Source: Burkholderia anthina (GTDB lineage Bacteria; Pseudomonadota; Gammaproteobacteria; Burkholderiales; Burkholderiaceae). From it: a stretch of DNA of 64,000 nucleotides. Location: the NCBI RefSeq assembly GCF_001547525.1, contig NZ_LNJP01000004.1, positions 186,001-250,000 on the forward strand. The letters are read 5' to 3'. The notes beneath the pieces were generated by a model. It saw only the letters and a list, made by a program, of their open reading frames with translations. It ran no database searches and was not told where the DNA came from. Below, one piece after another: positions 33 through 1,696 of the stretch. The number at the start of each line of letters is the position of its first letter. Position 1 is the first letter of the stretch. The translations under genes and the position numbers were made by a program.

Positions 33-1328
33 TCAGTCGATTCCGTGAAACACCGCATCCTCCGGCCCCAGGTATGCCGGCGGGCGCCATGTCGCGTCGC
101 GCATCGAATGCTGGACGAGATTCTCGACGCCCAGCAGCACCGCGAAGATCGCCATCCGCACCGGAATGCCGTTGTCGGTCTGCCGGAAGATCGCGAGACG
201 CGGGTCGCGGTTCAGGTCGACCGACAGGTCGTTCGCGCCGGGCCGGCTGTCGCGCGGCAGCGGGTGCATGATCAGCGTGTCGGGCTTGCACACCGAGTCG
301 ACGAGCGCCTGGTTGATCTGGAAATCCGGCGTATAGCCTTCGAACGACTCGTCGGTGAAGCGCTCCTTCTGGATCCGCGTCGCGTAGACCACGTCCGCGC
401 CGCGCAAGCCCGCCGCGAGATCGTTCGTCTGCTCGACCGCGTGGCCGTTCGTCGAAATCTGGTCGACGATGTACGCCGGCATCTCGAGCGTCGGCGGCGA
501 CACGAGCGTGAACTTCAGCCCGCGGTACAGCGCGAGCAGCTTGACAAGCGAGTGCACGGTGCGGCCGTACTTCAGGTCGCCGACCAGCGCGATGTGCGCG
601 CCGTCGACGATCTTGCCGAGCCGCGAAAACTCGCGCTGGATCGTGTAGAGGTCGAGCAGCGCCTGGCTCGGGTGCTCGCCGGGGCCGTCGCCGCCGTTGA
701 TCACCGGCAGGTTGGTCGCCCGTGCGAATTCGGCCACCGAGCCTTTTTCCGGATGGCGGATCACGAGCGCGTCGACGTAGCCGGCCATCACGCGGCTCGT
801 GTCGTAGATCGATTCGCCCTTCGCCATCGACGAGAACGTGAAGCCCGTCGTGTCGCACACCGAGCCGCCGAGCCGGCAGAAGGCCGCGCCGAACGACACG
901 CGCGTGCGCGTGCTGGCCTCGAAGAACAGGTTGCCGAGCACGGCGCCTTCGAGCACGCGTGAAATCTTGTGACGCCGCGCGATCGGCTGCATGACGTCCG
1001 CCACGCGGAACAGCGCCTCGACCGAATCCCGCGAAAACTGGTCGACCGAGATCAATTGCGGCTTGCCTTCGAACAGGAACTGCTTCGCGAGCCCTTGTTT
1101 GTCTACGCTTTGCGTATAGTTCTCGCCATCCGGCGCCGAACGCTCGACGATTTCCGACACGAAGCGCTCGACGATCTCGGGCATCCCGCGCGATTCCTGC
1201 GAATCGTCCGGAAGCAGCCACGTATCCAGCGCGCGGCGGCTGACGCCGATGCGATTCGCGAATGCCTCGCGGGTCATGTTGAGGCGGCGCATCGCGTCGC
1301 GGAGGAAGGCTTGCTGGGGAACGGTCAT
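33..1328 (-). CDS. pyrB: Aspartate carbamoyltransferase with N-terminal helix-turn-helix domain
   Basis: Catalyses carbamoyl phosphate + L-aspartate to N-carbamoyl-aspartate, the committed step of pyrimidine synthesis. The 431-aa protein is about 120 residues longer than E. coli PyrB (311 aa). Residues ~85-431 are the ATCase: carbamoyl-phosphate loop STRTR (139-143), the GDLKYGRTVHSL stretch, and HPLPR near the C-terminus. Residues ~12-40 (LNMTREAFANRIGVSRRALD) read as a phage-repressor-like helix-turn-helix, joined by a ~45-residue linker. The start at 1328 is chosen because AGGAG (1335-1339) sits 6 bases upstream; an in-frame extension to 1583 runs through the promoter and is not believed. 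No pyrC or pyrI-like gene is adjacent. The enzyme call is secure; a DNA-binding role is inference from the HTH and the upstream dyad. Confidence 0.93.
   Translation of the reverse strand: MTVPQQAFLRDAMRRLNMTREAFANRIGVSRRALDTWLLPDDSQESRGMPEIVERFVSEIVERSAPDGENYTQSVDKQGLAKQFLFEGKPQLISVDQFSRDSVEALFRVADVMQPIARRHKISRVLEGAVLGNLFFEASTRTRVSFGAAFCRLGGSVCDTTGFTFSSMAKGESIYDTSRVMAGYVDALVIRHPEKGSVAEFARATNLPVINGGDGPGEHPSQALLDLYTIQREFSRLGKIVDGAHIALVGDLKYGRTVHSLVKLLALYRGLKFTLVSPPTLEMPAYIVDQISTNGHAVEQTNDLAAGLRGADVVYATRIQKERFTDESFEGYTPDFQINQALVDSVCKPDTLIMHPLPRDSRPGANDLSVDLNRDPRLAIFRQTDNGIPVRMAIFAVLLGVENLVQHSMRDATWRPPAYLGPEDAVFHGID
1104..1116. promoter_or_regulatory. Second, intragenic copy of the pyrB dyad core
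   Basis: TACGC-N3-GCGTA lies within pyrB codons 71-75, in the linker between the HTH and catalytic domains. It has the same core and 3-base spacing as the perfect dyad upstream of pyrB (1348-1368), but the outer bases are only partly symmetric. It may be an auxiliary operator or chance. Confidence 0.35.
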
Positions 1329-1347
1329 CGGCGGCTCCTGGGCGGAA

Positions 1348-1368
1348 AATATACGCGGTGCGTATATT
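1348..1368. promoter_or_regulatory. Perfect inverted repeat, candidate operator of the HTH-PyrB
   Basis: AATATACGC-N3-GCGTATATT is a perfect 9-3-9 palindrome, 19 bases upstream of the pyrB start codon. It overlaps the predicted -10 hexamer and transcription start, so a protein bound here would block initiation. The HTH domain of the adjacent ATCase is the obvious candidate ligand (inference). Confidence 0.6.
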
Positions 1369-1391
1369 AGTTTCTGCCGCGATGAAGTCAA
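1364..1391 (-). promoter_or_regulatory. Predicted sigma70-type promoter of pyrB
   Basis: On the minus strand, TTGACT (complement of 1386-1391) is followed after 16 bases by TAATAT (complement of 1364-1369). The -10 hexamer runs into the 21-bp palindrome at 1348-1368. Start-codon distance (about 30 bases from the expected +1) is normal. Confidence 0.5.
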
Positions 1392-1561: not shown

Positions 1562-1696
1562 ATGACGCGTACGATTGCTGCAATGCTGCTGGTGGTGACC
1601 GCCGCGCTCGCCGGTTGCAATACCGTCGCCGGCGTGGGCCAGGACATTTCGAAGGGCGGCCAGGCGATCAGCGATTCGGCTGAAAAGGCCAAGTAA
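1562..1696 (+). CDS. Entericidin-type small lipoprotein
   Basis: A 44-aa protein with a hydrophobic signal (residues 1-18), lipobox LAGC (Cys19), and a short polar tail ending in SAEKAK. This is the layout of the EcnA/EcnB entericidin family: small membrane-anchored lipoproteins linked in E. coli to stationary-phase lysis (EcnB) and its antidote (EcnA). Start at 1562 is favoured because GGAG (1551-1554) is 7 bases upstream; an in-frame ATG at 1556 is too close to the SD. It stands alone, divergent from pyrB, and is followed by a strong terminator. Which of EcnA or EcnB it resembles cannot be settled by eye. Confidence 0.8.
   Translation: MTRTIAAMLLVVTAALAGCNTVAGVGQDISKGGQAISDSAEKAK

Follow-up and report, generated by a model that had tools for sequence, protein, structure and literature searches.

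An aspartate carbamoyltransferase of Burkholderiales with an N-terminal helix-turn-helix domain and conserved candidate operators in its own gene

The pyrB gene at positions 33..1328 (minus strand) of a 64,000-nucleotide stretch of Burkholderia anthina DNA (the window; assembly GCF_001547525.1, contig NZ_LNJP01000004.1, positions 186,001 to 250,000) encodes an aspartate carbamoyltransferase (ATCase) with an N-terminal helix-turn-helix (HTH) domain, and our analysis suggests that this enzyme regulates its own transcription. We propose, with a probability of roughly 0.83, that PyrB binds at two operators within pyrB and limits the transcription of this gene. The HTH would be an autoregulatory module on ATCase, recognizing sites of the form TATACGC-NNN-GCGTATA: O1, which lies over the -10 element of the pyrB promoter, and O2, which lies about 245 bases downstream in the codons of a linker. 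Occupancy of O1 would block RNA polymerase, and the level of the enzyme would thus feed back on its own transcription; because O1 lies over the -10, this autoregulation probably takes the form of repression. The domain anatomy, the operators with their conservation and specificity, the joint presence of operators and HTH, and the operator-favoring codons of O2 are results of computation, and from that joint presence we infer that PyrB is the protein that binds O1 and O2. Two features of a trigger enzyme are present, namely, an HTH of predicted fold in the enzyme chain and cognate operators at the gene, the assignment to PyrB being by co-occurrence.

O1 is a perfect 9-3-9 palindrome at 1348..1368, and a palindrome search confirmed the position given for it in an earlier note on this DNA. 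The same note had placed the palindrome over the predicted -10, and this placement also holds: a sigma-70-like promoter, TTGACT-16-TAATAT, reads on the minus strand from 1391 to 1364 and is the only promoter-like sequence found there, and five of the six bases of its -10 sequence TAATAT lie in O1. With up to three mismatches allowed, the window has a single occurrence of the O1 pattern and none of 100 shuffles has any, and in the whole genome the palindrome is found at two places (the other with three mismatches), compared with one for a reversed control. On the strength of the shuffles, the whole-genome control, and the 1,375 control stretches described below, we reject the idea that O1 is a chance palindrome.

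O1 is kept in the fused loci of other bacteria. We pooled 188 fused loci, leaving out a partial match (G533) and a weak match (G129:C5), and obtained 163 distinct loci after removal of identical copies. One source search, restricted to the best 80 of 427 matches, nearly all from the Alcaligenaceae (Achromobacter, Bordetella, and kin), gave 76 of the 163, and results were therefore also counted over 55 sequence clusters. Each locus was scored by its best match to TATACGCNNNGCGTATA (14 bases) within -150 to +20 of the fused gene. The earlier note had held that HTH-bearing orthologues lacking the palindrome would tell against autoregulation; 161 of the 163 distinct fused loci carry O1 with a score of at least 12, and none of four non-fused relatives carries an operator (best scores of 7, 8, 8, and 9), so that the proposal withstood this check. 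The scores of the fused loci were 14 in 54 cases, 13 in 98, 12 in 9, 11 in 1, and 8 in 1, and in 156 of the 161 loci scoring at least 12, O1 starts 28-60 bases 5' of the first codon. By cluster, 53 of 55 reach 12, compared with 0 of 1,375 control stretches scoring above 11. Records from Comamonas, Variovorax, Caballeronia, and Burkholderia cenocepacia likewise show operator sites scoring 12-14; in Caballeronia sp. SBC2, O1 scores 13 and the internal site described below scores 12.

The non-fused relatives come from a sample of 300 Burkholderiales genomes, 21 of which hold a close relative, 17 with the HTH and 4 without it. In a tree of the catalytic parts, one of the four, L022, falls among the fused proteins on a long branch; it is likely, although not shown, that L022 lost its HTH. 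A fused gene of a 0.8-Mb genome (L134 in G378), which falls among the Alcaligenaceae, also on a long branch, has an O1 score of 8 and no operator. Where the others read RRALDTW, this protein reads LHTLNLW, and its recognition helix is altered.

These distributions bear on the possibility that a separate, unlinked transcription factor binds the palindromes while the HTH of PyrB does other work, such as oligomerization. Many biosynthetic genes are indeed under unlinked repressors. Nevertheless, we regard this explanation as improbable, since the sites co-occur with the HTH and are missing both from all four non-fused relatives and from L134, the fusion with the altered HTH. Moreover, such a regulator would have pyrB as its only target: in the B. 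anthina genome (7.27 Mb in four contigs), the sites with zero or one mismatch to TATACGCNNNGCGTATA are exactly O1 and O2, the two best matches. Two further sites have two mismatches, and the reversed control pattern gives three matches. We found no further site with at most one mismatch in this genome, and we therefore reject the idea that O1 belongs to a wider regulon including carAB or other pyr genes. In 19 other genomes searched with up to two mismatches, the total number of sites was at or below that of the reversed control in 17, the exceptions being G188 (9 versus 6) and G460 (10 versus 9). Among the matches listed, which cover nine genomes, O1 ranks first in each, O2 is also present with at most one mismatch in five, and there is one further 1-mismatch site (G119:C55:89288), which on reading lies inside a coding frame of a sugar-transferase/flippase cluster.

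A second, imperfect copy of the operator, missed in the earlier note, lies inside the gene at 1102-1118. This site, O2, has one mismatch to TATACGCNNNGCGTATA and is formed by codons Y71-T72-Q73-S74-V75 (TAT ACG CAA AGC GTA) and two bases of codon 76, within a linker (residues 65-90; 1059..1136, minus strand) that the alignment shows to be variable. At this place in the linker, 135 of the 163 fused loci score at least 11 of 14 and 145 score at least 10; for scale, 90 of the 1,375 control stretches have a score of at least 10, and 19 of them a score of at least 11. Across codons 55-80, the best in-frame site reaches 11 in 36 of the 55 clusters, whereas no cluster has a site of this score in any of nine other windows of these genes. 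It could be argued that the HTH and O1 are real and that O2 is simply a conserved linker peptide, YTQSV, that resembles an operator by chance. In favor of this view, the linker conserves the YTQSV residues, a perfect O2 occurs in just one of the 163 loci, and 18 of the 163 have no O2 of 10 of 14 at the linker place. Against such a coincidence, the synonymous codons at O2 are the most operator-like possible in 35 of the 55 clusters, versus 1-7 of 55 in control windows, and the palindrome persists in the DNA where the peptide differs (YTHSV in L018; YAQSAQ in Pollutimonas and others). In many Alcaligenaceae, the two arms of O2 have changed jointly, to TATGCGC-AAA-GCGCACA, so that Ala stands in place of both Thr and Val and the palindrome is kept. 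We therefore think it quite unlikely that O2 is a product of the peptide alone.

The distance between the two sites has a mean of 245 bases and a standard deviation of 9 (41 clusters). Seventeen loci lack O2 (best score of 9 or less), leaving 146 others. Five of the 17 (L019, L020, L021, L130, and L131; families f8 and f23) show another upstream site, scoring 11 of 14, which lies 30 or 45-46 bases from the first, compared with 3 of the 146 others (Fisher P of 3e-4). The copy on a Comamonas plasmid lacks O2 and carries a pair of sites of 12 of 14 upstream, and Variovorax paradoxus has upstream sites scoring 13 and 10. L212 and L214 are also O2-less with two upstream operator-like sites, and with these included the spacing is 30-32 or 45-46 bases.

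The domain that would recognize these sites comprises residues 1-64 of PyrB (1137..1328, minus strand). In Pfam it gives only a weak match to HTH_3 (E value of 0.003 with the first 83 residues; 17.9 bits against a cutoff of 23). AlphaFold2 predicts a four-helix HTH (helices 5-16, 20-27, 31-37, and 51-64) that is all-helical, with no strand, and has a mean predicted local distance difference test score (pLDDT) of 84.3. The closest solved fold is that of Aca1, an anti-CRISPR-associated protein of phage JBD30 that has been solved with palindromic DNA and that represses its own operon. Identity is 17-25% over the aligned residues, and a profile search of solved structures with the PyrB HTH gave no match to Aca1, the likeness being at the level of fold only. 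Aca1 is a stand-alone phage protein, whereas the PyrB HTH is fused to an enzyme. Stand-alone relatives of the PyrB HTH are present in the order (L132, L133, L135, and L136). The HTH of L135 adjoins a frame matching DUF6036 and AbiEii nucleotidyltransferases, and those of L132 and L136 adjoin frames that look similar on reading. Palindromes of the type CCCC-ATT-GGGG lie directly 5' of the HTH in L133, L135, and L136, with half-sites three bases apart, as in O1, and a different half-sequence (CCCC/GGGG). The palindrome finder scores them as having a 1-base center, since the outer two of the three center bases also pair. A similar sequence 5' of the HTH in L132 falls under the palindrome threshold. 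This arrangement suggests that the HTH domain may have been an autoregulator before it joined ATCase.

How far the fusion would go beyond simple autoregulation is less certain. Known ATCase catalytic subunits form trimers, and since a palindrome needs two HTHs, the HTHs would have to pair, within or between trimers; one PyrB oligomer could then hold O1 and O2 together, and substrates or nucleotides might modulate its binding to the operators. We offer more tentatively, and with some doubt, a fuller version in which the HTHs on the trimers of the ATCase oligomer bridge O1 and O2, occupation of the active sites or nucleotide binding shifts the geometry of the HTHs, the saturation of the enzyme sets pyrB transcription, and the need for the operator has fixed the linker's amino-acid sequence. 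PyrB might instead be a pure autorepressor that is blind to metabolites, or an activator, the fusion merely setting the level of the enzyme. That some of the unfused HTH relatives have palindromes just 5' of their own frames, as plain autorepressors do, speaks for this alternative; against the activator form, the position of O1 over the -10 fits repression better than activation. We consider it a serious possibility, although less than an even one.

Several observations weigh against the proposal that PyrB regulates its own gene through O1 and O2. A -35 of at least 4 of 6 with suitable spacing to the -10 was recognized in only 27 of the 55 clusters, and three of the four non-fused relatives come from one genus. 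Twelve of the 17 O2-less loci have no second upstream site of at least 11, implying that O2 is not always needed, and no helical phasing of the O1-O2 distance was found in the 41 clusters, so that a stiff loop is unsupported. The codon test gives a combined P of 2.6e-51 for O2, a value that is only nominal, since one control window gives 9e-6 and the clusters share ancestry, making the test poorly calibrated. The Foldseek E values for the Aca1 match are 0.03-0.17, and common HTH arrangements score likewise. Finally, the AlphaFold2 model of full-length PyrB has a pLDDT of 63, too poor for domain geometry.

The remainder of the 431-residue chain is an ATCase. The catalytic region spans residues 91-431 (36..1058, minus strand), with Pfam domains at 92-231 (PF02729; E value of 7.5e-43) and 243-397 (PF00185; E value of 1.8e-28) and a TIGR00670 match above the cutoff. 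The HTH extension described in the earlier note is thus upheld, its length being about 90 residues rather than about 80, with the ATCase domains beginning at about residue 91. Both domains are present, and the alignment reads FFEASTR, RIQKER, and HPLP at the carbamoyltransferase motifs; PyrB is therefore intact by its motifs and should be a catalytically competent ATCase. It is 98.8% identical to a B. cenocepacia protein record. The NCBIfam model NF008853/PRK11891 matches it over residues 1-431 (898 bits; cutoff of 560), which means that the HTH-ATCase fusion is a known sequence family, filed under an ordinary enzyme name.

We take class A ATCases to be those of the pyrR-pyrB-pyrC' type with an HPGP motif. 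The PyrB of the window does not belong to this class, having an HPLP motif and a TonB-receptor-like neighbor, while a pyrR-pyrB-pyrC-like cluster lies elsewhere. The B. anthina genome has two other carbamoyltransferase matches. One is a second ATCase (L002) with an HPGP motif, which on reading lies between pyrR-like and pyrC-like frames; the other falls below the ATCase cutoff and is probably an ornithine carbamoyltransferase. When 24 genomes were searched with TIGR00670, the fusion was found in 20. A second ATCase exceeds the cutoff in 13 of these, and in the remaining seven (G098, G138, G194, G207, G237, G267, and G378) no ATCase other than the fusion does. Of these seven genomes, five are of 4-6 Mb and belong to the family that holds Achromobacter, and the other two measure 1.2 and 0.8 Mb. 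In genomes with no other ATCase, the fusion must be biosynthetic, and a catabolic role is rejected there. Among 369 genomes of the class searched for the fusion outside Burkholderiales, the HTH was found only in the B. anthina genome and as a weak match in a 69-residue frame, and in the genomes searched, including the search restricted to the best 80 of 427 matches, the HTH-ATCase fusion was seen only in Burkholderiales. The motif names used above (FxExSTR, RxQxER, and HPLP) follow PMC4581275, whose "Future Outlook" section notes an HPLP form of ATCase of about 430 residues and asks only about a catabolic role for one of the two ATCases of Burkholderia. By its full-length PRK11891/NF008853 match, PyrB belongs to the same protein family as that form. 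The main text of PMC4581275 contains neither "DNA-binding" nor "helix-turn-helix."

Several enzymes that double as regulators invite comparison. The DNA-binding domain of PutA is a ribbon-helix-helix, and we set aside a PutA-type regulator, given the all-helical prediction for the PyrB HTH. BirA, like PyrB, carries an N-terminal HTH on a biosynthetic enzyme, and it controls a separate biotin operon; it differs in enzyme and in HTH, and the target proposed for PyrB is its own gene. BirA (biotin ligase/repressor) is listed as a trigger enzyme in PMC8249747, and in that paper PutA (proline dehydrogenase/repressor) is likewise a trigger enzyme, which binds only the putA-putP spacer at its own locus. 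PutA resembles our proposal in joining a metabolic enzyme to a DNA-binding repressor at its own locus. PutA is catabolic, in contrast to the PyrB fusion, whose ATCase is biosynthetic and carries an HTH, and whose gene has an operator in coding sequence. At E. coli carAB, the enzymes PepA and PyrH regulate a pyrimidine-arginine operon; according to PMC6245113, about 230 bp of carAB DNA is wrapped around PepA, and no direct DNA binding was seen for PyrH. Neither pairs an HTH with a palindrome on the gene of the enzyme itself, as the PyrB fusion does. The main text of PMC5343134, on regulons of Proteobacteria, contains neither "pyrB" nor "aspartate carbamoyltransferase." Among the matches listed from the open-access literature, subscription journals and theses being outside this scope, we saw no description of the fusion as a regulator, in agreement with the earlier note, whose author knew of no ATCase acting in this way. 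What is known is the fusion as a sequence family, PRK11891; what is new is the operator evidence.

The remaining features of the locus are as follows. The start codon of pyrB is at 1328-1326 and the stop codon at 35-33, and a likely ribosome-binding site, AGGAG, was read at 1335..1339 (minus strand), six bases 5' of the start codon. The gene looks monocistronic, since the next same-strand frame downstream, TonB-receptor-like on reading, starts about 420 bases away. A small divergent open reading frame (1562-1696, plus strand; 44 amino acids), lipoprotein-like on reading and presumably entericidin-like, has an intergenic region in common with pyrB.

ATCase is the textbook allosteric enzyme, and if our proposal is true, an ATCase that also acts as the transcription factor of its own gene would join two layers of control in a single polypeptide. 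The linker operator would clearly exemplify how a regulatory site in DNA can constrain the sequence of a protein. The distribution of the fusion is also relevant to the question of a catabolic Burkholderia ATCase that PMC4581275 poses, since the HPLP form, in genomes with no other ATCase, must be biosynthetic. In the seven genomes, among the 24 searched, in which the fusion is the only ATCase, the switch would, if it exists, govern all pyrimidine synthesis.
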